A DNA stretch of 64,000 nucleotides. Origin: Lebetimonas natsushimae (lineage in GTDB: Bacteria; Campylobacterota; Campylobacteria; Campylobacterales; Nautiliaceae). The position numbers and the translations under genes were made by a program. This document shows, in pieces, positions 42,668 to 61,769 of the stretch (its first letter is position 1; every line of letters begins with the position of its first letter). The stretch spans positions 62,001 through 126,000 of the forward strand of contig NZ_BDME01000002.1 of assembly GCF_002335445.1 (NCBI RefSeq), given 5' to 3'. The notes under the pieces were generated by a model. That model searched no databases. It was not told where the DNA came from and saw only the letters and a program-made list of their open reading frames with translations.

Positions 42668-45600
42668 ATGATGGATAAATTAAAAGAAATTAAAGCCCAG
42701 ATTGATGAAAAAAAGAAAAGATTGGAAGAATTAAAAGTTTCTTCATGCGATATAAATGAAATAAAAACTCTTGAAGATGAAATTAAGGAATTAGAAGAAG
42801 CAGCAAAAAAAAGAGAAGAAAAAATACATTCTCTTGAAGAAGAAGTTCAAAAAAAAGAAGAAGAATTAGCTCATATTGAAGAAGAACTTGAGTTAAATAT
42901 TGCAGGAAAACTGGCAAGAACATTTTTAAAAAATCCACTGACTCCTGTAATTGCCCTAACTCTTATATTAATGGGGTTAATTGCTGTGTTTTTAACACCA
43001 AGAGAGGAAAATCCACAGATAGATGTTCCCGCCGCCAATGTAATAGTGGTATATCCGGGAGCTAGCTCCAAAGAAGTCCAAAATGTGATAGTAGACCCTC
43101 TTGAAAGAACCCTAAAAGCCATGACCGGTGTAAAACATGTTTACGGTATGGCAATGAATAGTGTCGGAATTGTTACTGTCAGATTTAAAATCGGTCAGGA
43201 TAAAGTAAGAAGTATCAGTAAACTTTATGACAGAGTTATGCAAAATATGGATAAACTTCCAAAAGGTGTATGGACACCTCTTGTTAAACCAATTGATATT
43301 GACGAAGTGCCAATTGTAACTTTAGCGCTTTCAAGTGAAAAGTATAATGATGCTCAGCTTTACAGAATTGCCCAAAGACTGCTTTCTCCTCTTGCAGCAG
43401 TAAAAAATGTGAGTATTATCGGGATAAAAGGCGGTCATAAAAGACAGTTTAATATTTTAATCGACCCTCAAAAACTTGCAGCCTATCATTTATCACTTGG
43501 CCAGATAGCAATGGCGCTTAAAGGCGCTAATGTGGATTATCCGCTAGGTTCAATGGATAATAAAAAATACTCAATCCCTGTGGAATTTGACGGATTTATT
43601 GATTCAGTTAAAGATGTTGAAAATTTGGTAGTCGCAAACTATATGGGAAGACCGATTTACATTAAAGATATCGCAAAAGTTGAAGACGGAGTCGATTTTC
43701 AAAATAAACATAAAACTTATTATGAAGCAGGACTTGCTAATGAAGATAAAGATGTAATCGGCAAAAAATTAAATCAGGTTACCATTTTTATCGGTAAAAA
43801 AAGAGGAACAAATGCTGTTTTTGTGGCAAGGGATGTAATCGCCAAGGCAAAAGAGCTTGAAAAAACACTTCCAAAAGATGTAAAAATATTTGTTACAAGA
43901 AACGACGGGCACAAAGCAAATCATGCAGTTAATGAACTCATTGACCACTTGTTAATTTCACTTGGAGTTATTATTGTGCTTTTGATTTTAATGCTTGGAT
44001 GGAGAGAAGCATTAATTGTAGCGTTTACAGTGCCGCTTATTTTATCTGTGACACTGTTTATAGGTATGCTTGCAGGTCAGACAATTAACAGAATTACACT
44101 GTTTGCATTAATTCTTTCACTTGGATTATTGGTTGACAGTGCCATTATCGTTATTGAAAATATACACAGACATTTTGAAATTGGTGATAAAGAGAGAGAA
44201 TATGCAGCGGTTTATGCAACAAATGAGATAGGAAATCCAACTAATATTGCAACACTTGCGATTATTCTGGCATTTATTCCAATGCTTTTTGTTACGGGAA
44301 TGATGGGCCCATATATGAGACCGATTCCGTTTAACGTGCCAATTGCTATGATTGCCTCACTTGTAATTGCTTATATGTTTACACCGTGGGCTGCTGTTAA
44401 ATTCCTGCCAGAACACAAAAGTCATCATGAACCTTTTGATATAAGAAAAACCAAAACATATAAAATTTTTTATTCAATTTTAGAGCCGTTACTGAATTCA
44501 GGGTTTAAAAGAGTGGTGTTTTTCAGTGTAATTATGCTTTTATTTGTGGGATCTCTTATGCTTCCGGTTTGGAAAATCGTTTTGTTTAAAATGCTCCCGG
44601 GAGCGAATAAAAACACATTTAATATAACAATCGATTTGCCAAAAGGTGCAAGTATAGATTCTACTGCAAAAGTTAGCAACTGTGTAGCTAGTATTTTAAG
44701 CAGAGAAAAAGAAATAAAAGATTTTGAACAGTTTATAGGTATCAGCGGGGTTGTGGATTTTAACGGATTACTTAGAGGCTCTTCTATGAAACAGGGAGAA
44801 AATTACGGAGAAATAAGGGTCAACCTGTTCCCTAAAGAAGAGGGTAGAAAAGAAAGTTCAATTGATATGGTAAGCAGGCTTAGACCTATTATCCAAAAAC
44901 AGTGTAGTTTTGATGGTGCAAATATCAAACTTGTAGAAGACCCTCCAGGACCGCCTGTAATTGCCACACTTTTAATGCAGGTATTCGGAGGAGATGCTAA
45001 GGGAAGACTTAAACTTGCCAATTACATAGAAGATATCTATAAACACACAGACAGGGTTGTAGATATTGATATTATGAGAGACAGACAGATTGTAAAATAT
45101 AAAATTATTCCGGATAAAGAAAAAGCGGCTTTACTTGGCATCAGTGTGGACCAGATTGCAAAAATTCTTGGAATGGGCTTAAAAGGAGCAGTAATCAGTG
45201 TTGCACATATTCCAAACGAAAAAGATCAGGTCGGTATTTTTGTAAGATTTGAGAAAAAATACAGAAATAATTTAGAAAGCCTTGATAAAATAAAATTAAT
45301 GTCAATGACAACCCATAGATTAGTGCCGCTTAAAGAAGTGGTAAAAGTTGTGCCTGTGGGTTATGACGGAATGATTACAAGCAAAGATTTAAGACCTATG
45401 GTTATGGTTACTGGTGAAATGAATAAAAGAGGTAGTATTTACGCACTTTTGGATATTTTCTTTGAGCTTAAAGACAAAGGAATTCCTGGTTATAAAATCA
45501 TTTATGACGGAAATCCGAGATTAAACCTAAAAGCACTTGATTTAAAAACCGGTAAAAGTTATGATTTAATCTGGGGAGGTGAATGGGAGCTTACATTTGA

Positions 45601-46153
45601 TGTATTCAGAGATCTTGGAAGTGCATTTGGTGTTGCAGTTGTGTTAATTTATCTATTGATGGTTGCTTATTATAAAAACTTTAGAATTCCAAGAATTGTT
45701 CTCGCAGCCGTACCGCTTACATTTATCGGGGTTCTTCCGGGACATGCCATAATGAACTGGATAACTCTTGCATTTTTCCATTCGAAAACATATTTTACGG
45801 CAACCAGTATGATCGGGTTTATTGCACTAGCCGGAATTGTTGTTAGAAATTCGCTCCTTTTAATAGACTTTACCAATGACTTAATTAGACAGGGCAGAAG
45901 TATAAATGAAGCAGTGATTGAAGCTGCCGCTACAAGATTTAGACCGATTATTTTAACAGCCCTAGCAATAATCTTGGCATCATTTGTAATTGTTCTTGAC
46001 CCGGTTTGGCAGGGTCTTGCAGTTGCACTGATTTTCGGTGTACTTGCTTCTACATTATTATCAGTCATAGTAGTTCCGATTCTTTACTGGAGATATTTGA
46101 TTTCAAAACAGAAAAAAGAAAAACATATTAAATACGGATTAGAAGATATTTAA
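42668..46153 (+). CDS. RND-family efflux pump with N-terminal coiled-coil extension
   Basis: The 1161-residue inner-membrane proton-driven pump. A charged coiled coil (about 1-75, Lys/Glu heptads) comes before the usual start of RND pumps, which here is ARTFLKNPLTPVIALTLILMGLIAVFL (about 82-108). Two sets of membrane segments and periplasmic loops follow. TM4 has LGLLVDSAIIVIENIHRHFEIG with one Asp in the relay, and TM11-12 has ATRFRPIILTALAI. The substrate is not evident. An AGGAGCG site precedes ATGATG. Confidence 0.9.
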   Translation: MMDKLKEIKAQIDEKKKRLEELKVSSCDINEIKTLEDEIKELEEAAKKREEKIHSLEEEVQKKEEELAHIEEELELNIAGKLARTFLKNPLTPVIALTLILMGLIAVFLTPREENPQIDVPAANVIVVYPGASSKEVQNVIVDPLERTLKAMTGVKHVYGMAMNSVGIVTVRFKIGQDKVRSISKLYDRVMQNMDKLPKGVWTPLVKPIDIDEVPIVTLALSSEKYNDAQLYRIAQRLLSPLAAVKNVSIIGIKGGHKRQFNILIDPQKLAAYHLSLGQIAMALKGANVDYPLGSMDNKKYSIPVEFDGFIDSVKDVENLVVANYMGRPIYIKDIAKVEDGVDFQNKHKTYYEAGLANEDKDVIGKKLNQVTIFIGKKRGTNAVFVARDVIAKAKELEKTLPKDVKIFVTRNDGHKANHAVNELIDHLLISLGVIIVLLILMLGWREALIVAFTVPLILSVTLFIGMLAGQTINRITLFALILSLGLLVDSAIIVIENIHRHFEIGDKEREYAAVYATNEIGNPTNIATLAIILAFIPMLFVTGMMGPYMRPIPFNVPIAMIASLVIAYMFTPWAAVKFLPEHKSHHEPFDIRKTKTYKIFYSILEPLLNSGFKRVVFFSVIMLLFVGSLMLPVWKIVLFKMLPGANKNTFNITIDLPKGASIDSTAKVSNCVASILSREKEIKDFEQFIGISGVVDFNGLLRGSSMKQGENYGEIRVNLFPKEEGRKESSIDMVSRLRPIIQKQCSFDGANIKLVEDPPGPPVIATLLMQVFGGDAKGRLKLANYIEDIYKHTDRVVDIDIMRDRQIVKYKIIPDKEKAALLGISVDQIAKILGMGLKGAVISVAHIPNEKDQVGIFVRFEKKYRNNLESLDKIKLMSMTTHRLVPLKEVVKVVPVGYDGMITSKDLRPMVMVTGEMNKRGSIYALLDIFFELKDKGIPGYKIIYDGNPRLNLKALDLKTGKSYDLIWGGEWELTFDVFRDLGSAFGVAVVLIYLLMVAYYKNFRIPRIVLAAVPLTFIGVLPGHAIMNWITLAFFHSKTYFTATSMIGFIALAGIVVRNSLLLIDFTNDLIRQGRSINEAVIEAAATRFRPIILTALAIILASFVIVLDPVWQGLAVALIFGVLASTLLSVIVVPILYWRYLISKQKKEKHIKYGLEDI

Positions 46154-52401: not shown

Positions 52402-52740
52402 ATGGGTCTTATTTTAACAATAGCCTCCGGTTTAGTGGCAGGTATATTGCTTTTATATTTACTTGGGATAATAATAGCGCCTTTTAATCCGGGTGATATT
52501 AAAAACGACCATTTTGAATGCGGGCTCCCGCCAAGTTCTGAATCCCCGAGTAAAGCCAATTTTAATTATTTTATTTTTGCGATATCTTTTATTGTGTTTG
52601 ATATGGCAGGGCTTTTCTTTTCTTTATTTGTTTTTGCGGATGATAAAGATGCTCTAAACTGGGCTATGGTTTTTGGAATTTTACTGTTTGCAGCTATTAC
52701 AATAAGTATGAAGGAGTACAGAAATGCTAAAAGTTCTTGA
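52402..52740 (+). CDS. nuoA: complex I subunit NuoA
   Basis: A small membrane subunit (112 residues, three hydrophobic helices at about 5-27, 54-76 and 82-104) with the conserved loop KNDHFECGLPPSSESPSKANFNYFIFAISFIVFDMAGLFFSLFV, including the Cys of the switch loop. Presence of NuoA argues for a true complex I rather than a group 4 hydrogenase. The 3' end overlaps nuoB by 17 bases. Confidence 0.95.
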   Translation: MGLILTIASGLVAGILLLYLLGIIIAPFNPGDIKNDHFECGLPPSSESPSKANFNYFIFAISFIVFDMAGLFFSLFVFADDKDALNWAMVFGILLFAAITISMKEYRNAKSS

Positions 52741-53197
52741 TTTTTTTAATTATGCAAGGAGTAAATCTCCCTGGATAGTTCATTTTTGTAGTGGCTGTTG
52801 TTCACTTGAAATGTTAGCTTCTATGGGACCTAGATATGACTGGGAAAGATATGGGTATATTATGACTCCAACTCCAAGACAGGCTGATATTATTTTTATT
52901 ACAGGGCTTGTAAGTAAAAAAATTCTGCCGGCTCTTCTTAGAACTTATGAACAAATGCCAGAACCTAGATATGTCGTTGCAATTGGTGCATGTGCGTTTG
53001 ACGGCGGGCCTTATAACGATTCACCGTCAGTTATAAAAAACATGACAGAAATTTTACCGGCTGATGTATTTGTGGCAGGCTGTCCTCCAAAACCTGAAGC
53101 CATTATTGCCGGTCTTGAAGAGCTTAAAGAAAAAATCAAAAGAGGCGAGCCAAGCGCATCAAGCCAGGGCGGCCTTTGGAAACAAATGAAATTTTAA
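52724..53197 (+). CDS. nuoB: complex I subunit NuoB (N2 cluster)
   Basis: Holds the terminal 4Fe-4S cluster N2. The 157-residue protein has the tandem cysteine pair Cys25-Cys26 in HFCSGCCSLEMLAS, plus the later GACAFDGG and GCPPKPEAI cysteines. An extra Cys22 precedes the pair by three residues, replacing the usual Gly. RQADIIFITGLVSKKILPALLRTYEQMPEPRYVVAIG is typical NuoB. The protein lacks the longer N-terminus of many NuoB. SD AAGGAG at 52711. Confidence 0.94.
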   Translation: MLKVLDFFNYARSKSPWIVHFCSGCCSLEMLASMGPRYDWERYGYIMTPTPRQADIIFITGLVSKKILPALLRTYEQMPEPRYVVAIGACAFDGGPYNDSPSVIKNMTEILPADVFVAGCPPKPEAIIAGLEELKEKIKRGEPSASSQGGLWKQMKF

Positions 53198-53200
53198 GGG

Positions 53201-54856
53201 ATGGCGATGGAGAAAATTAAAGAAATTTTAAATAAATTTGATACAGAATATATAGAAGATTACAAAAAAACATGGGTAAAAGCAAAACTTAAAAATAAAG
53301 AAGATTTATTAAATGTGGTAAAAGATTTAAAACATGAGGGAGTTAAAACCTGCTCAACCGTTTCTCCTACCGATTTTATAGATGAAGACAAAATAGAAAT
53401 AAATTATTTTTTAGAAGATTTAAAAAACAAAAGAAATGTATGGTTAAAAGTTGATATTCCAAGAGATTTAGAACATTGTGAAATTGATTCAATAACTCCT
53501 CTTTTTCCAAGCGCTGATTATCATGAATTGGAAGCATATTCAACTTTTGGGGTAAAATTTAAAGGTCATCCGAATTTAAGATACTTTTTAATTTCTCAGG
53601 ATTATTACGGCAAATTTCCATTTAGAAAAGATTTTGACTGGAAAGAGCATGAAAAGCATTTAATAGAAAATGTAAATGCAATAAGTGAAGATTTTTTTGA
53701 AGATTATGAAGAAAATGAAAAAAAATTAGGTCATAATGGAAGTGAAACAGTATTAAACTGGGGTCCAACTCACCCAGCAAGCGGACCTATCAGACTTAAA
53801 GTTTTTACAAACGGAGAAATTATAGAAAAAATTGAACCGGATATTGGATATGTATGGAGGGCGTTAGAAAATTTAGTTGAGAGGAAAGATTTTATAGGCG
53901 CTATTACAGCAGTCGAGAGAATCTGCTTTATGGATAATCCAAATCCGATGATATGTTATTCTCAGGCTGTTGAAGAGATTGCAGGAAAAGAAATTACTCC
54001 GTTTGCAAAATATATGAGGGTGGTTTTGGGAGAAACAGGAAGAATTGCAAGTCACTTGATTTCCATTGGTGGATTTTTCGGAACAATGGGACTTCAGACA
54101 TTTTTGATGTGGACACTTGACGTCAGAGAATATTTTCTAGACGTTTTAGAAGATTATAGTGGAGCCAGAATTGCAACTGCCTGTGTAGAACCCGGAGGTG
54201 TTAGATACCCACTTAATGATTATAAAGCTTGGTTTGGAGAAATAAATAAAGCGATAGAAAAATGGGAGAGTGTTAAACCTGATATTGAAGATATTTTCTT
54301 AAAAAACCCTCTTATGACTACCAGGGCAAAAGGTCTTGGAATATTTACCAAAGAAGATGTGGAAACATATTATCTTGCAGGTCCTATTGCAAGAGCCAGC
54401 GGATATAAAACAGATGTAAGAATTGATGAACCGTATGCTGCTTACGGTGAACTTGAAATGGATTATGTGATCTGTGACAGCGGTGATACAAGAGACAGGC
54501 TTTATATTATTTATAAAGAAATAAATCAGTCAATTGATTTAATTAAACAGGCTATGAAAAAACTTCAAGAGGGTATTGAAGCTGGAGAGATGGATCCAAC
54601 AAAAGACCATTTAATCAGAATGCCAAAAAGACTTCCAAAAGGTGAAGCGGTTACAAGAGTTGAATGGGCCAGGGGAGAAATGCTTATGCATTTGGTAACA
54701 GAAGAAAAAGCAACAAGTCCATACAGACTTAAATTAAAAGCGCCAAGTGTTAACCATACAATGGTTCTTGATGTGTTACTCAGAGGAAAAACATTATCTG
54801 ACATACCGCTACTTTACGGAAGTATGCATATATGTCAGGGTGATTTAGACAGATAA
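53201..54856 (+). CDS. nuoC: fused complex I subunit NuoCD
   Basis: The 551-residue fusion: NuoC part (about 1-150, SADYHELEAYSTFGVKFKGHPNLRYFLISQDYYGKFPFRKDF) and NuoD part (about 183-551, NWGPTHPASGPIRLKVFTNGEIIEKIEPDIGYVWRALENLVERKDF). Cys242 in VERICFMD and Cys545 in SMHICQGDLDR sit at the first Cys of the two hydrogenase CxxC motifs. The usual quinone-site His and Tyr of NuoD appear changed. AAGGG directly before the ATG at 53201 suggests that the ATG at 53207 may be the true start. Confidence 0.92.
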   Translation: MAMEKIKEILNKFDTEYIEDYKKTWVKAKLKNKEDLLNVVKDLKHEGVKTCSTVSPTDFIDEDKIEINYFLEDLKNKRNVWLKVDIPRDLEHCEIDSITPLFPSADYHELEAYSTFGVKFKGHPNLRYFLISQDYYGKFPFRKDFDWKEHEKHLIENVNAISEDFFEDYEENEKKLGHNGSETVLNWGPTHPASGPIRLKVFTNGEIIEKIEPDIGYVWRALENLVERKDFIGAITAVERICFMDNPNPMICYSQAVEEIAGKEITPFAKYMRVVLGETGRIASHLISIGGFFGTMGLQTFLMWTLDVREYFLDVLEDYSGARIATACVEPGGVRYPLNDYKAWFGEINKAIEKWESVKPDIEDIFLKNPLMTTRAKGLGIFTKEDVETYYLAGPIARASGYKTDVRIDEPYAAYGELEMDYVICDSGDTRDRLYIIYKEINQSIDLIKQAMKKLQEGIEAGEMDPTKDHLIRMPKRLPKGEAVTRVEWARGEMLMHLVTEEKATSPYRLKLKAPSVNHTMVLDVLLRGKTLSDIPLLYGSMHICQGDLDR

Positions 54857-54865
54857 GGAGATAAA

Positions 54866-55837
54866 ATGGGTGTAGGTGAAATTTTATTTTATATTTTAGT
54901 TTTTCCGGGGCTTCTTTTTTTACTTGGTTGGACTTTTTTTGTGTTTTATTTTTCAAGAAAAACATTAGCATACCTTCATAAAAGAGTAGGGCCTCATTAT
55001 AATGGACCTGCAGGTAGTTTGCAGACAGTTTATGATATTTTTAAACTGCTTGTTAAAGAAAATGTAACGCCAAAAAGTGCTGATCCGTATTTATTTAATA
55101 TTATTCCTATTATTACACCTCTTGTGGCTGCACTTCCGGTATATTTGATACCTTGGAGCCCAATGATAAATAACGGTCATGGAATTATTGATACTCAGTA
55201 TGGACTTTTAGGGATTGTTGTATTAATTGGGGTTGAACCGTTTTTATTGTTTTTAACAGGTTTTGGAAGTAATAATAAATATTCATTTCTCGGGGGGATG
55301 AGAATTCTTGCTCAAATGATTTCAATGGAAGCACCGTTTTTTTTAGCGGCATTGTCTCCTGCTATTTTGTTTGGAACTATGAATTTATATGAAATTATGC
55401 AATCAAATACATGGCTTACAACTTTAATTTTATTACCAGGTGCAATTATTTATATAGTTGCGATGCTCGGAGTGCTTGAACAGCCTCCGTTTAATATTCC
55501 AGATGCAGAACAGGAAATTGTATATGGGTTTTATACGGAATATTCCGGCACAAATTATGTTTTGCTTAAATTTGCTGAATTTACAGAAATTTTGGTTGTG
55601 AGTGCAAGTGCGGTTGTGCTGTTTTTCGGCGGATATAAGGGGATCGGTTTTGATAGTTTTTGGTGGTTGTTTTTTAAAATAATTTTAATTGCTATTTTAG
55701 TTGTAGCAATCAGGGCTTCTAACCCGAGACTTAGACTTGATCAGATGCTTAAATTTTGCTGGAGCTGGCTGACACCTATGGCTATATTAAATTTAGTTTG
55801 GGTTACATTTGCAAGAATTTATATATTAGGAGCGTAA
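54866..55837 (+). CDS. nuoH: complex I subunit NuoH
   Basis: The 323-residue membrane subunit that forms the quinone entry site with NuoB and NuoD. It has eight hydrophobic segments, the N-terminal loop KRVGPHYNGPAGSLQTVYDIFKLLVKENVTPKSAD and the conserved acidic loop EQPPFNIPDAEQEIVYGFYTEYSG. The family sequence RTPFDLPEAESELV is here EQPPFNIPDAEQEIV, a little unusual. It follows nuoCD by nine bases; nuoE, F and G would normally lie between. Confidence 0.95.
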   Translation: MGVGEILFYILVFPGLLFLLGWTFFVFYFSRKTLAYLHKRVGPHYNGPAGSLQTVYDIFKLLVKENVTPKSADPYLFNIIPIITPLVAALPVYLIPWSPMINNGHGIIDTQYGLLGIVVLIGVEPFLLFLTGFGSNNKYSFLGGMRILAQMISMEAPFFLAALSPAILFGTMNLYEIMQSNTWLTTLILLPGAIIYIVAMLGVLEQPPFNIPDAEQEIVYGFYTEYSGTNYVLLKFAEFTEILVVSASAVVLFFGGYKGIGFDSFWWLFFKIILIAILVVAIRASNPRLRLDQMLKFCWSWLTPMAILNLVWVTFARIYILGA

Positions 55838-55838
55838 G

Positions 55839-56393
55839 ATGTTGTTTCAAATAAGTGAAAGAATCCTCAGAGTTTTAAAGGCTCTGAAAGAACCAAGGAT
55901 TGCAGTAAAAGACGTAGTAAAAGAACCAGCTCATAAATCTCCTATTTTTAGAGGAAGACACACAGTAAGATATGATATTTGTACAGGATGTGATGCATGT
56001 AATAAAATTTGTCCTGTTGATGCCATTAAAATGAAGCCTTTACCTATTAAAAGGCCAAATAAAGTACCGGAAGTAAATTTAGCTATTTGCATATTTTGCG
56101 GTCTTTGTGAAGATGTGTGTCCTACAAAACCCGAAAAAGCTATTAAACTTGCCGGTGGCGATATAGAAATGGTTACACATGACGGTACTCATGAAACGCT
56201 TGAAAATTTCTGGGTAAGAGTAAATATTCCTGAAGAATGGATAGAACAGAAGAAAAAAGAAGAAGAGGAAAAAGCCAGAAAAAAAGCTGAGATGATGGCT
56301 AAGAAAAAAGCGGAAGCAGAAGCTAAGAAAAAAGCAGAAGAGGAAGCTCAAAAAAAACAAGAGATTAAATCTCCTAAAGGGGAAGAAAAATGA
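55839..56393 (+). CDS. nuoI: complex I subunit NuoI with long Lys/Glu/Ala tail
   Basis: An 8Fe ferredoxin-like subunit carrying clusters N6a/N6b: CTGCDACNKICP (Cys48, 51, 54, 58) and CIFCGLCEDVCP (Cys84, 87, 90, 94). The final 48 residues (about 137-184) are an uninterrupted Lys/Glu/Ala helix (KKKAEAEAKKKAEEEAQKK), resembling a TolA-type helix and absent from standard NuoI. The stop overlaps the nuoJ ATG (ATGA). Confidence 0.94.
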   Translation: MLFQISERILRVLKALKEPRIAVKDVVKEPAHKSPIFRGRHTVRYDICTGCDACNKICPVDAIKMKPLPIKRPNKVPEVNLAICIFCGLCEDVCPTKPEKAIKLAGGDIEMVTHDGTHETLENFWVRVNIPEEWIEQKKKEEEEKARKKAEMMAKKKAEAEAKKKAEEEAQKKQEIKSPKGEEK

Positions 56394-56857
56394 GTATATT
56401 AATTTTGTTTATCGCATTGGTTTTGGCAATTATGAGTTTAACTCAAAAAAACACTGTCGGTGCAGTAATGGCTTTTGTTATGATGATGTTTTTACTGGGA
56501 ATTTATTACATAGGAATGGGTGAAAAACTTCTAGGGCTTTTTCAAATATTTGTCTATACAGGTGGGATTGTTGTATTGACACTTTTTGGTGTAACAGTAA
56601 TAGGTAATAAATTTCCTGATTTTAAAATCAGACCTTGGGCTGTCGCCGTTATTACTTTTGTTATGATAGGTTTAATTATTATTCCATTTTTAATGCCTGA
56701 AATTCCAAGTGCGGGTAAACCTATACCTCTTAAAGACCAAGTAAAAGTATTTACAGATTTTTATGCTGAAATTGCAATTTTTATGGGTGTGGTTGGAGCG
56801 AGTATATTATACGGAAGCATTAGAATGTTACACACTCTAAAACATGAAAAGGAATAA
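56390..56857 (+). CDS. nuoJ: complex I subunit NuoJ
   Basis: A membrane subunit of 155 residues with five hydrophobic helices. The family helix with the pi-bulge is ...LLGLFQIFVYTGGIVVLTLFGVTVIG (about 46-71), where IFVYTGGIVVL matches the conserved (Q)ILVYAGAIMVLFLFVIM of NuoJ. It is coupled to nuoI by ATGA. Confidence 0.93.
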   Translation: MSILILFIALVLAIMSLTQKNTVGAVMAFVMMMFLLGIYYIGMGEKLLGLFQIFVYTGGIVVLTLFGVTVIGNKFPDFKIRPWAVAVITFVMIGLIIIPFLMPEIPSAGKPIPLKDQVKVFTDFYAEIAIFMGVVGASILYGSIRMLHTLKHEKE

Positions 56858-56859
56858 CG

Positions 56860-57168
56860 ATGGTTGGGTTTTATATTGATGCATTTTTTGCTTTAATGCT
56901 TTTTGGTGTAGGTTTATACGGGGTTACCAGTAAAAGTGATTTTTTAAAAATATTTTTTTCACTGGAAATGCTTTTAAATGCTGTAATACTGCTTTTGGCT
57001 AGTGCGGCATTCCATTTCGGACTTACAAGAGGTTTGGCAGTTGCCTATGTAATTATTGTAATTGCAACGCTTGAAGCGGCGGCTGGAATATTGATATTTA
57101 TTCTAAGTTCTAGAATGACAGGTGAAATTATTCCAGATAATTTAGATAAGGCGGTGAAAGATGAATAA
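56860..57168 (+). CDS. nuoK: complex I subunit NuoK
   Basis: A 102-residue subunit with three helices. The conserved acidic residues of the proton path lie in FFSLEMLLNAVILLLASAAF (about 31-50) and VIIVIATLEAAAGILIFILSSR (about 64-85). It overlaps nuoL by eight bases. Confidence 0.95.
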   Translation: MVGFYIDAFFALMLFGVGLYGVTSKSDFLKIFFSLEMLLNAVILLLASAAFHFGLTRGLAVAYVIIVIATLEAAAGILIFILSSRMTGEIIPDNLDKAVKDE

Positions 57169-59011
57169 TGCAGTAAATATTTTATTATACGCTCCGTTTA
57201 TTGGTGCAGTTTTGGCATATATTTTAGGTAAATTAAAACAACCTTTAGCGTTTTGGGTTGCTGAAATTACCGGTGGACTTTTATTTTTGGCAAGTATTGT
57301 AATTTTTGTTACTCATTCGGGCGTTCCTATTGATATTGATTATACATGGATTAGTTATGGGGATTTGAAACTGCCTTTTGGTATTTATATAGACCATCTT
57401 TCAATTGTAATGCTTTTAATTGCAACAGGTCTAGGACTCGCTGATATTCATTTTGCCCACGATTATATGGGTAGTGATCCGGATCAGCCGAGATATTATG
57501 CAAAAGTCCTATTTTTTATTGGTGGTATGATTTTACTTGTTATTACAAAAGATTTAATCGGCGCTTTTGTCGGTTGGGAATTTATGGGGCTTGCAAGTTA
57601 TGCTTTAATCAGTTTCTGGTATTTTAAAAATTCTGCCGCAAATGCGGGTATGCAGGCATTTCTTTATACAAGATTCGGAGATATTTTTATATTGGCAGCT
57701 ATAGGGCTTTTATATTATTATGTCGGAACTGTTAATTTAGTAGAACTAAATCATTTAGCTGATGCAGGTCAGATTAATAAAATTGTTGCATTGGTTGCGG
57801 CTTTGTTTATATTTATGGGAGCTATTGGTAAATCAGGCCAGTTTCCGCTTTATCCTTGGCTTATGAATGCTATGGAGGGTCCTACAACTGTTTCTGCATT
57901 AATTCACGGTGCCACAATGGTTAACAGCGGTATTTATATTGTTGCAAGACTTTTTAATTTTTATGCTTATACAGATGCACTGTATGTAGTTGCAAATGTG
58001 GCAGCACTTTCTGCATTTATAGGTTCAACATCAGCACTTGTCCAAAAAGAGATTAAAAAAATCTTGGCTTATTCAACAATGTCTCACTTATCAATAGCTT
58101 TTGTTGGTCTAGGTGTCGGTAGTCTGGCTGCCGGAATGATTCATTTAGTCAATCATGCTATTTTTAAAGCACTGCTTTTCTTAAGTGCCGGTGCGGTTAT
58201 TTATATTGCACACCATACAAAAGATGCATGGAAACTCGGAGGACTTGTTAAAAAAGCGCCTTATGTTGCTTTGTTTATGGCAATGGGCTCACTTTCACTT
58301 TCAGGTGTTCCTCCATTTAGTGGATTTTTCTCAAAAGAAATGGTAGTTACTGAAGCGTGGCTGCACGGTAATGACTTTACTAAGATTTTTGTAACTATTG
58401 CGGCGTTATTATCAATTGCGTATATTACAAGGCTTTGGATTCTGATTTTCTTAGGAGAGCCGAGAAATGAAGAAATTGCGGGAAGTGTGCATAAACCGAG
58501 TAATTTATGGATAAGACTTCCTCTTGGAATTTTAGCTTTTGTTACTCTTTTGATTTCAATTTGGCAAACTGATATCATTCATTATATTACCGGTGAAGAA
58601 GCGGTAGAAGAACATATCGCCTGGCTTGGTGTATTTATGTTATCTACTATGTTTGTTATTTTCTTAATAGTTGTGGGACTTTATGTAAGAGGGCTTCAGT
58701 TATTGTATAAAATAGGGTCCCATCATTTTATCCAGATAATTCACCAGGTTTTATTTAACGGATATTATGTGGAAGCAATGATTACATGGATTAGTAAAAA
58801 CATAATTGTAAATGCTTTGGCAAAGTCCGCAAGGTGGTTTGATTCAAAAGTAATTGACTATATTGTGGATGCTACTGTACCTACAACTTATCAGGTTTAT
58901 AAATTATTCAGGGTAGGACACAGCGGTAAAATTGGAACATATATGGGACAAATGGTCCTTGGAGTTGCAATTATAGTATTAGCAATCTTAATAATTGTAA
59001 AGGGTCTATAA
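57161..59011 (+). CDS. nuoL: complex I subunit NuoL
   Basis: The distal antiporter-like subunit with the long lateral helix, 616 residues. The core has FVGWEFMGLASYALISFWY (TM5 Glu), KSGQFPLYPWLMNAMEGPTTVSALIHGATMVNSGIYIVARL and the STMSHLSIAFVGLG segment with the lysine path. The C-terminal region (about 480-616) includes the amphipathic helix and the anchoring TM. The last base is shared with the nuoM start (taATGg). Confidence 0.96.
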   Translation: MNNAVNILLYAPFIGAVLAYILGKLKQPLAFWVAEITGGLLFLASIVIFVTHSGVPIDIDYTWISYGDLKLPFGIYIDHLSIVMLLIATGLGLADIHFAHDYMGSDPDQPRYYAKVLFFIGGMILLVITKDLIGAFVGWEFMGLASYALISFWYFKNSAANAGMQAFLYTRFGDIFILAAIGLLYYYVGTVNLVELNHLADAGQINKIVALVAALFIFMGAIGKSGQFPLYPWLMNAMEGPTTVSALIHGATMVNSGIYIVARLFNFYAYTDALYVVANVAALSAFIGSTSALVQKEIKKILAYSTMSHLSIAFVGLGVGSLAAGMIHLVNHAIFKALLFLSAGAVIYIAHHTKDAWKLGGLVKKAPYVALFMAMGSLSLSGVPPFSGFFSKEMVVTEAWLHGNDFTKIFVTIAALLSIAYITRLWILIFLGEPRNEEIAGSVHKPSNLWIRLPLGILAFVTLLISIWQTDIIHYITGEEAVEEHIAWLGVFMLSTMFVIFLIVVGLYVRGLQLLYKIGSHHFIQIIHQVLFNGYYVEAMITWISKNIIVNALAKSARWFDSKVIDYIVDATVPTTYQVYKLFRVGHSGKIGTYMGQMVLGVAIIVLAILIIVKGL

Positions 59012-60441
59012 TGGTAGCAGTAGATATTATTTTCGCACCGATATTTTTATCGGTTCTGGTTTACTATTTGACAAAAAATGCACAGGAATATACAAAATAT
59101 ATCGCACTTGCATGGTTTGTTGTTGAATTTATTATTGCATTTAGCTGGTATAAAAGTCTGCCTCAGGTTGGGTTTTTAGAACTTGGTAATTATTTAAGTG
59201 TTCCTCAGTTTGGATTTGATTTAACTTTAAGAATTGATGCCTTGAGCGTTGCAATGCTTCTTTTGACATCAGCTCTTTTAATACTGGTTGTATTTACTTC
59301 CTGGGAAGAAAAAAATCAGGCTGCTTATTTTAGTTTGTTAATTGCATTTAGCGGACCTATTTTTGGTGTTTTTATGACAACCAACGTTTTATGGTTTTTT
59401 ATCTTTTGGGAATTGACTCTAGTTCCTATGTATTTTCTTGTAGGTATTTGGGGAAGTGAAAAAAGAATTTATGCAGCGGTTAAGTTTTTCCTATTTACCC
59501 ATGTTTTTGCAATGTTTATGTTTATAGGATTTTTCTTACTGTTTAAAGAAACAGGTTATTGGGATTTAACTTTAATTAAAGAAGCGGCTTTAACCACCCC
59601 TGCACTTATCTGGTGGCTGATGTTTTTGGGTTTTGCTGCAAAACTTCCTGTATTTCCATTTCATACATGGCTTCCTGTTGCACACGTAGAGGCGCCAAGT
59701 TCCATTTCTGTATTACTTGCAGGTGTACTTCTTAAAATGGGGGCTTACGGACTTATAAGATTTACAGTTGAACTTATGCCAGAAACTACTGCTCATTTTG
59801 CAATTTATATGGTAATTATCGGTTTGGCTACAACTCTTTTTGCCGGAATGCTTGCTATTTATGAAAGACATATAAAAAGAATGGTTGCATATTCTTCCAT
59901 TTCACATATGGGGCTTGTAGTGGTTGCAATTTCCACTATGACATATGACGGTCTGAGTGCGGCACTTTATGAAATGATAGGACACGCTCTTGTTATTTCA
60001 CCACTGTTTTTAATTGCGGGATGGCTGCATCATAAAACACATACATGGTATATGGATGAGATGGGCGGAATTATGAAATATGCACCATATGCAAGTGCTA
60101 TATTTATTTTAGCAGGTATGGCGGCTTTAGGCTTACCAGGAACTATGGGATTTGTGGGAGAACTTACAATTATAGTTTCATCAATTAAAGCATACGGCTG
60201 GTGGATAGCTGTTATTGCACTTGGTAGTTTAATCAGTGCCGGTTATATTATTTGGGCTGTCAGACGTGCAATTCACGGAGAGGCTAGTGAAATTGTCTTA
60301 AAATCTAATTTTAAAATGAGTTTTGCAGAAAAATTTGCTTTGGCTATTTTTGCTGTTTTAATTATATATTTTGGGGTTCAACCTCAAGCAATATTTGATT
60401 TAGCAAATCAAGCATTTGCAATGTTTGGAGGTATGCAATGA
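59011..60441 (+). CDS. nuoM: complex I subunit NuoM
   Basis: The 476-residue antiporter-like subunit with WFFIFWELTLVPMYFLVGIWG (TM5 Glu), KLPVFPFHTWLPVAHVEAPSSISVLLAGVLLKMGAYGLIRF and KRMVAYSSISHMGLVVVAIST. All match NuoM. The stop overlaps nuoN in an ATGA arrangement. Confidence 0.96.
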   Translation: MVAVDIIFAPIFLSVLVYYLTKNAQEYTKYIALAWFVVEFIIAFSWYKSLPQVGFLELGNYLSVPQFGFDLTLRIDALSVAMLLLTSALLILVVFTSWEEKNQAAYFSLLIAFSGPIFGVFMTTNVLWFFIFWELTLVPMYFLVGIWGSEKRIYAAVKFFLFTHVFAMFMFIGFFLLFKETGYWDLTLIKEAALTTPALIWWLMFLGFAAKLPVFPFHTWLPVAHVEAPSSISVLLAGVLLKMGAYGLIRFTVELMPETTAHFAIYMVIIGLATTLFAGMLAIYERHIKRMVAYSSISHMGLVVVAISTMTYDGLSAALYEMIGHALVISPLFLIAGWLHHKTHTWYMDEMGGIMKYAPYASAIFILAGMAALGLPGTMGFVGELTIIVSSIKAYGWWIAVIALGSLISAGYIIWAVRRAIHGEASEIVLKSNFKMSFAEKFALAIFAVLIIYFGVQPQAIFDLANQAFAMFGGMQ

Positions 60442-61769
60442 GTTTTATAACATTAATAGCGGCGGGATTATTAGTACCGGTTTTTTACAAAAACAACATT
60501 TTCATTGCTAAATTAATCGCAGTTGTGGCATTTATTTTATCTGCATATTTTGTATATACAAATCAGAGTTTAAGCAGTGTGTTTCCTTTATTTGTAAGTG
60601 ACGAGGCCACTAAACTTATGGAATATGTGTTACTTGCAACATTGGCTGCGGTCTCACTGTCTCTAACAGGATTTGAAAGACCTTTAATTGCTCAAATGCT
60701 TTTTATTGCAGGGCTTTCACTGGCAATTCTTGAGACAGATAATTTTTTTGTATTTATTGTGTTATTTGAATCTATAGCTATAGTTTCTTATATTTTGGTT
60801 GCTAATATCAGAAATTTTTATAATGCAGAAGGGGCTGTGAAGGCGTTTATTGCAGGGGCTGTGGCAAGCGGTATTATCTTGCTTGGATTTGCATTATTTT
60901 CTTTTGTAACAGACAGTTTTACATATAATGAAATGAGTGTAAATGGGAAATTTACATTAATTGCTGTTGCTATTATGCTTGCAGGTGTCTTCTATAAATT
61001 AACAATTGTGCCAATGCATGCTTGGGCTGCGGATACATATTCTCAGGTTAATCATGCTGCGGCAGCTATTTTGAGCGGTGTTATAAAAAGTGTAATGTTG
61101 TTAGCAATTTTTAAAGCGTTTTATAAATTTATGATTGCTTATCCAATTGCCACTGTTTTAATTTTCAGTTTCTTTGCGATAATCACTATGACACTTGCAA
61201 ACTTTATGGCTTTATGGCAAAAAAGAATTTCAAAAATTTTAGCTTATTCTTCAATTGCACACAGTGGTTATGCCCTAATACCTTTTGCCGCTGCAGCAAG
61301 TGTTTATTCTTATGCAGGGGTTCTTTATTATGCAATTGCATACATTTTTATGCAGACAAGTGTGTTTTTAATCTTAAATGATTTAAGAAGAGAGGCTGGT
61401 GTTAAGTTTCTTGAAGATATTAAAGGACTTGGAAAAAGAGCACCAATTCATTCATTTTTCTTTACTGTTCAGATTTTTTCACTTGCAGGTATTCCTCTTT
61501 TAGCAGGATTTTTGAGTAAAGCGGTTGCATTTTATTCGGGTGTAGATGCAGGCCTTTGGCCGATAGTGTTAATTGCGGCACTTAATTCTGCTTTAGCGGT
61601 TGGATATTATGCATGGATTGTAAAACATATTTATTTTGACAAGGCGAACAGTAACTCTACTATAGAAATTTCAACCGGTAGTTTTATAGGACAACTTATT
61701 CTTTTGACTGGAACTATTTATTTTGGTGTTTTTGCTGCAAGCGTATTTAATGCTACAATTTCAATGTAA
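60438..61769 (+). CDS. nuoN: complex I subunit NuoN
   Basis: The 443-residue antiporter-like subunit. It has VFIVLFESIAIVSYILVA (TM5 Glu), YKLTIVPMHAWAADTYSQVNHAAAAILSGVIKSVML (broken TM7 region) and KRISKILAYSSIAHSGYALIPFA. It is the last gene of the operon; 20 bases separate it from pflA, so read-through into pflA is likely. Confidence 0.95.
   Translation: MSFITLIAAGLLVPVFYKNNIFIAKLIAVVAFILSAYFVYTNQSLSSVFPLFVSDEATKLMEYVLLATLAAVSLSLTGFERPLIAQMLFIAGLSLAILETDNFFVFIVLFESIAIVSYILVANIRNFYNAEGAVKAFIAGAVASGIILLGFALFSFVTDSFTYNEMSVNGKFTLIAVAIMLAGVFYKLTIVPMHAWAADTYSQVNHAAAAILSGVIKSVMLLAIFKAFYKFMIAYPIATVLIFSFFAIITMTLANFMALWQKRISKILAYSSIAHSGYALIPFAAAASVYSYAGVLYYAIAYIFMQTSVFLILNDLRREAGVKFLEDIKGLGKRAPIHSFFFTVQIFSLAGIPLLAGFLSKAVAFYSGVDAGLWPIVLIAALNSALAVGYYAWIVKHIYFDKANSNSTIEISTGSFIGQLILLTGTIYFGVFAASVFNATISM

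Follow-up and report, generated by a model that had tools for sequence, protein, structure and literature searches.

Gene content and organization of the locus

The window analyzed here, a stretch of 64,000 nucleotides from a Nautiliaceae genome, encodes ten genes on the + strand at positions 52402-61769, in the order nuoA-B-CD-H-I-J-K-L-M-N. The individual genes and the evidence for their assignment are as follows.

52402..52740, + strand: nuoA, start of the operon; NCBIfam NuoA models are weak (36 bits), and its position is constant in all complete loci
52724..53197, + strand: nuoB, carrier of the proximal [4Fe-4S] cluster; nuoB_fam model, 163.6 bits (cut-off 142.7)
53201..54856, + strand: nuoCD, a fused NuoC-NuoD of 551 amino acids; open reading frame and profile scores
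54866..55837, + strand: nuoH, membrane anchor of the complex I type; 156 bits against Nqo8 vs 61 bits against MbsM
55839..56393, + strand: nuoI, whose product has two 4Fe-4S motifs and ends in a tail rich in Lys, Ala and Glu; sequence and models
56390..56857, + strand: nuoJ; NuoJ models are weak, and the gene is syntenic in relatives
56860..57168, + strand: nuoK; NuoK model, 47.7 bits (cut-off 57), syntenic in relatives
57161..59011, + strand: nuoL; NDH_I_L model, 424.8 bits, above the cut-off of 407.5
59011..60441, + strand: nuoM; NDH_I_M model, 398.7 bits, above the cut-off of 263.8
60438..61769, + strand: nuoN, end of the operon; NDH_I_N model, 200.5 bits, below the cut-off, syntenic

With C and D fused, these ten genes provide the 11-subunit complex I-like set NuoABCDHIJKLMN within a single operon. 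Genes for NuoE, NuoF and NuoG are absent from the operon both here and in the loci of relatives, and neither FpoF nor FpoO is found among the operon genes here. The same gene order is present in every Nautiliales locus of sufficient length and in four loci from other families of Campylobacterota. A preliminary description of this DNA, which gave the nuoCD reading frame, its coordinates and its residue numbers correctly, regarded the C-D fusion as the architecture of HycE; the fusion is no hallmark of HycE, as NuoCD is fused in E. coli, Acinetobacter, Bacteroidales and haloarchaea too.

The C-terminal tail of NuoI (window 56200-56393) is long and rich in Lys, Ala and Glu; it is also present in Nautiliales relatives and is shorter in some other Campylobacterota. 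An acidic electron donor, for instance ferredoxin, could dock on this tail.

Active-site residues of NuoCD

The residues of interest in NuoCD are located as follows.

53771..53785, + strand: HPASG, residues 191-195, in the b1-b2 loop; complex I has one residue more here and MbsL the same number, and the quinone His is absent
53924..53926, + strand: Cys242, the first Cys of L1; 28/28, on MbsL Cys85 with no gap
53927..53929, + strand: Phe243, at the position of the quinone-binding Tyr; Phe in 28/28, Tyr in 37/37 canonical NuoD
53933..53935, + strand: Asp245, in place of the second Cys of L1; 28/28
54833..54835, + strand: Cys545, the first Cys of L2; 28/28, on MbsL Cys385
54842..54844, + strand: Asp548, in place of the second Cys of L2; 28/28, Glu in 37/37 canonical NuoD

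Conservation was assessed in 28 distinct homologues from this clade, with identity down to about 60%. In an alignment of 42 D-subunit rows, the L1 motif RxCGxC is matched by VERICFMD and the L2 motif DPCxxCxxR by GSMHICQGDLDR, which places Cys242 and Cys545 on the first cysteines of the two hydrogenase CxxC motifs, as had been proposed from the sequence. Both are invariant in the clade: they neither vary freely among homologues nor lie outside L1 and L2. Cysteines 51, 252, 328 and 425 are variable among the same 28 proteins. The 37 canonical NuoD proteins of Campylobacterota have D/N at position 242, Y at 243 and V/I at 545, and all of them carry the quinone His. The exact placement of the cysteine pair in L1 and L2, together with its invariance when set against these canonical columns, therefore argues that it did not arise by chance. 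The proposed alteration of the quinone site is likewise borne out, because every one of the 28 homologues has Phe in place of the Tyr and the shorter loop that lacks the His. NuoCD scores below the cut-offs of the canonical NuoD models (239.7 bits vs 459 for TIGR01962 and 306 vs 360 for NF004739). The AlphaFold2 model of NuoCD, for which the input was 15 close homologues, has pLDDT of only about 25-46 around Cys242 and Cys545.

Two further features of the protein were considered. The segment GYVWRALENLVERKDF had been likened to the hydrogenase form, and GYVWRALE was rejected as a hydrogenase-like segment on the alignment: the clade has WRA, not HRG, and HRG is usual in hydrogenases and complex I alike. 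Cys93, in the NuoC domain (window 53477-53479), is conserved in 28/28 clade members and has no obvious role.

NuoB and the proximal cluster

The adjacent NuoB carries a motif of hybrid appearance.

52787..52801, + strand: C22-S-G-C25-C26 of NuoB, an MbsJ-type CxxC overlapping the tandem Cys of complex I; present in all aligned clade NuoB proteins

The clade sequence reads FCSGCC, compared with FCTGCG in MbsJ and FGLACC in complex I. The best match of NuoB in the PDB is MbsJ (6u8y_J, 145.6 bits, gapless), with the bovine homologue at 144.9 bits, and in a NuoB tree with 26 rows, none of them FpoB, the clade NuoB joins MbsJ with support of 96/92. Position 22 is scored neutrally by the broad NuoB model (C22G, +0.4 bits), and FCSGCC may therefore be found elsewhere as well. 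The tandem Cys25-Cys26 suggests that the proximal cluster is probably fully ligated; the sequence thus does not point to the three-cysteine ligation of the proximal cluster that characterizes MBS.

Comparison with known systems

The closest parallel to the NuoCD pocket is the MBS of Pyrococcus furiosus. Of the four nickel cysteines, MbsL is described as retaining the two at C85 and C385, with no equivalents of the quinone ligands H38 and Y87 (PMC7684303), and the same combination occurs in NuoCD. Its alignment with MbsL (6u8y_L) is gapless from the loop through L1 and places C242 on C85 and C545 on C385; in the alignment as displayed the last 75 residues of the query are those of MbsL, and the C-terminus of NuoCD itself was aligned separately. 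The two systems thus share both first cysteines, the missing quinone His and Tyr, the short loop and an FCxGC NuoB-type subunit. They differ in the membrane arm, which is Mrp-type in MBS, and in the proximal cluster, which has three Cys there; the enzyme described here has NuoH, NuoL and NuoM of the complex I type and a tandem-Cys NuoB. An MBS-style Mrp arm is not encoded here, as NuoL and NuoM exceed the complex I cut-offs and NuoH is Nqo8-like. Since the pocket resembles MBS and Fpo and these membrane subunits are of the complex I type, the complex unites both.

We used the NCBIfam models as a probe of the two cysteine positions by rescoring substituted copies of NuoCD. The substitutions C242D and C545V changed the score of the FpoD model (NF040602) by -6.5 and -4.6 bits, that of TIGR01962 by +4.7 and +3.1 bits, and that of NF004739 by +0.3 and +0.4 bits, respectively. 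The FpoD model thus favors Cys at both sites. A sequence that we take to be FpoD, which scores 732 bits on this model (cut-off 600), reads RICY and GCTSE. Fpo of methanogens also resembles the enzyme described here in having a core without NuoEFG, but NuoCD reaches only 233 bits against the FpoD cut-off of 600, and FpoD favors Tyr at position 243. The cysteine pair appears to be common to MbsL, FpoD and, judging from the neutral score of NF004739, probably part of the wider NuoD family. The earlier statement that NuoD of complex I has neither cysteine consequently holds for the 37 canonical Campylobacterota proteins and is too general beyond them, as FpoD and MbsL keep both. The pair by itself is already known from MBS (PMC7684303) and indicated for FpoD, and the pattern is not unique. 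Among solved structures, a pocket with half of the nickel cysteines and without the quinone residues has so far been described only for MBS, an archaeal sulfur reductase.

Bacterial 11-subunit complex I-like enzymes, such as those of Desulfitobacterium and Bacteroidales, have an equal subunit set and no NADH module, and a Prevotella locus has the identical gene order with C and D fused. The two Bacteroidales proteins sampled differ in having D/N-Y and V at the sites in question and in retaining the quinone His. The Hfo of Bathyarchaeia, an Fpo-like 11-subunit hydrogenase with a complex I-type layout, has been proposed to connect hydrogenases with complex I, but differs in keeping all four [NiFe] cysteines (PMC7886697). 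The partial complex I reported in 2009 for Nautilia profundicola, a cluster lacking E, F, G and, according to its authors, K, is very probably the same enzyme; the authors proposed that it serves reverse electron transport to NAD(P)H, and active-site residues are not discussed in the part of that paper available to us (PMC2628731). A nuoK is present here and syntenic in relatives, and was probably overlooked in that report.

Phylogeny and distribution

The D-subunit tree was built without the columns of the loop, L1 and L2. The clade is placed between the group 4 hydrogenases on one side and FpoD, MbsL and NuoD together on the other (100/96 and 99/96), in a thinly sampled tree that lacks the 11-subunit NuoD of Firmicutes, Desulfobacterota and Aquificota. 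This position did not move when MbsL, the Ehr rows and FpoD were dropped. In AU tests, joining the clade to MbsL (p 0.18), to FpoD (p 0.097) or to the sampled NuoD (p 0.067) was not rejected, and joining it to the canonical Campylobacterota NuoD was rejected narrowly (p 0.043). The stem of the clade is long (about 1.2), and given this and the thin sampling the safe wording is that it lies outside the NuoD sampled here. We conclude that the clade stands outside the sampled NuoD, beside MBS and Fpo, with more than one branching order compatible with the AU tests. The suggestion that NuoCD is an intermediate or derived form between hydrogenase and complex I is partly supported. The place in the tree, the MbsJ-like NuoB, the cysteine pair and the absence of the quinone ligands agree with a stem-type form on the way from group 4 hydrogenases to complex I, but MBS already shows this residual state, FpoD is indicated to share it, and the AU tests do not reject joining the clade to MbsL, FpoD or the sampled NuoD.

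Proteins of the clade type were found in 14 of 397 Campylobacterota genomes. No canonical NuoD was found in the Nautiliaceae genomes, and each of the five non-Nautiliaceae genomes with the clade type has a canonical NuoD besides. The close homologues of NuoCD come from genomes of the same genus or family and from MAGs titled Nautiliaceae or Nautiliales; a search of viral contigs for more diverse homologues found none.

Proposed function and alternatives

We lean, with somewhat better than even confidence, towards a menaquinone-linked, ferredoxin-coupled, ion-pumping 11-subunit complex I-like enzyme with relic cysteines. The subunit make-up, the alignment, the conservation and the operon are seen directly in the sequences; the donor, the acceptor, the pumping and the part played by the cysteines are inferred. 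Low-potential electrons, most likely from ferredoxin, would enter at NuoI and pass through its two clusters and the proximal NuoB cluster to the hydrophobic NuoB/D/H pocket, and this flow would be coupled to ion pumping via NuoL, NuoM and NuoN. Ferredoxin is the presumed donor because the NADH module is missing and because the Desulfitobacterium 11-subunit enzyme has been proposed to accept ferredoxin electrons (PMC11238625). The complex may also run in reverse and supply CO2 fixation with reduced ferredoxin. Its pocket would be of the old type, in which the [NiFe] site is gone and both first cysteines lie beside the proximal cluster, as in MBS. The activity of the MBS C85A/C385A mutant is reported to be about that of the wild type (PMC7684303), and the equivalent cysteines here are therefore probably non-catalytic; rather than forming a nickel site, Cys242 and Cys545 most likely persist as relics with a structural or local redox-tuning role. 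Two aspects of this proposal are at odds with the data. The loss of both quinone ligands is unexpected for an ordinary menaquinone reductase; other Campylobacterota NuoD retain them, and the missing His/Tyr pair together with the affinity to MbsJ would favor an acceptor other than quinone. In addition, the strict invariance of C242, C545, D245 and D548 exceeds what a passive relic needs.

If the acceptor is not a quinone, the complex might be an MBS-like sulfur reductase with a complex I membrane arm, passing ferredoxin electrons on to polysulfide in the NuoB/NuoD pocket, where the proximal cluster would be the reaction site, with coupling to ion pumping. In favor of this reading, which we consider unlikely, NuoB groups with MbsJ in the tree mentioned above and has it as the top PDB match, the cysteine pair and the loss of quinone ligands are MbsL-like, and Nautilia respires elemental sulfur (PMC10092268). 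However, the proposed sulfur-reducing site of MBS is an open Fe site on the proximal cluster (PMC7684303), and the NuoB described here has the tandem Cys26, where MbsJ has Gly, so that its cluster is probably fully ligated. Moreover, NuoH is complex I-like, and PsrABC already serves sulfur in Nautilia sp. PV-1 (PMC10092268). The tandem Cys and the complex I-type NuoH make menaquinone at a modified site the more probable acceptor than polysulfide. A still smaller chance is given to a catalytic mononuclear metal (Fe, Zn or Ni) held by Cys242, Asp245, Cys545 and Asp548. All four residues are invariant (28/28) and occupy the four [NiFe] ligand positions, and the MbsL equivalents are Cys/Glu and Cys/Asp; yet the part of the MBS account available to us describes no metal there and reports the double cysteine mutant as active (PMC7684303), and the L2 carboxylate is present, as Glu, in all canonical NuoD as well. 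A broader proposal, which seems doubtful to us, sees in the clade the missing step, on the bacterial side, between MBS and complex I: an MBS-type peripheral arm would sit on a complex I membrane arm, and the quinone ligands would have given way to a non-standard acceptor site, either for polysulfide or with a 2Cys/2Asp metal center.

The remaining readings concern descent and hydrogenase activity. The complex could be a secondarily derived complex I, whose NuoD lost the quinone ligands and regained two cysteines by chance or convergence; the AU test leaves the clade joined to the sampled NuoD standing (p 0.067) and the stem is about 1.2. We regard such a history as quite improbable, because the free tree without the trait columns sets the clade outside NuoD, FpoD and MbsL (99/96), the join to canonical Campylobacterota NuoD is narrowly rejected, and two independent gains at these exact sites in addition to an MbsJ-like NuoB are unlikely. 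An active group 4 [NiFe] hydrogenase, which the homologous subunits and the retention of half of the ligands might suggest, is ruled out, since all 28 proteins carry Asp where a hydrogenase has the second Cys of L1 and of L2, which on the sequence excludes a [NiFe] center. Intact Ech-like and Coo-like large subunits are, moreover, encoded elsewhere in the same genome.

The clade bears on the route from hydrogenases to complex I, for which the stepwise loss of [NiFe] cysteines rests structurally mainly on archaeal MBS. As a bacterial group in which an MBS-type pocket and a hybrid NuoB motif go together with a complex I membrane arm, it adds an independent second system, and some of its members may be cultivable. 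These vent bacteria, the Nautiliales, have a stripped-down complex I that keeps half of the metal-binding cysteines of the ancestral hydrogenase in its pocket and has lost the usual quinone-holding residues. The clade also raises the question of how an acceptor is bound without the His/Tyr pair thought to be central to complex I coupling.

Other observations

The Coo-like and Ech-like [NiFe] large subunits of this genome (L048 and L049) have intact L1 and L2. A further group 4-related large subunit of the same genome (L050, G000:C1:561900-562949) has none of the four [NiFe] cysteines (IERISGNES, SFDLSYAGNDL) and groups with Ehr-like proteins of Rhizobium and Azospirillum. Elsewhere in the window, positions 42668-46153 encode an RND-type efflux protein of 1161 amino acids, whose charged N-terminal extension, about 80 residues long, is coiled-coil-like in appearance.
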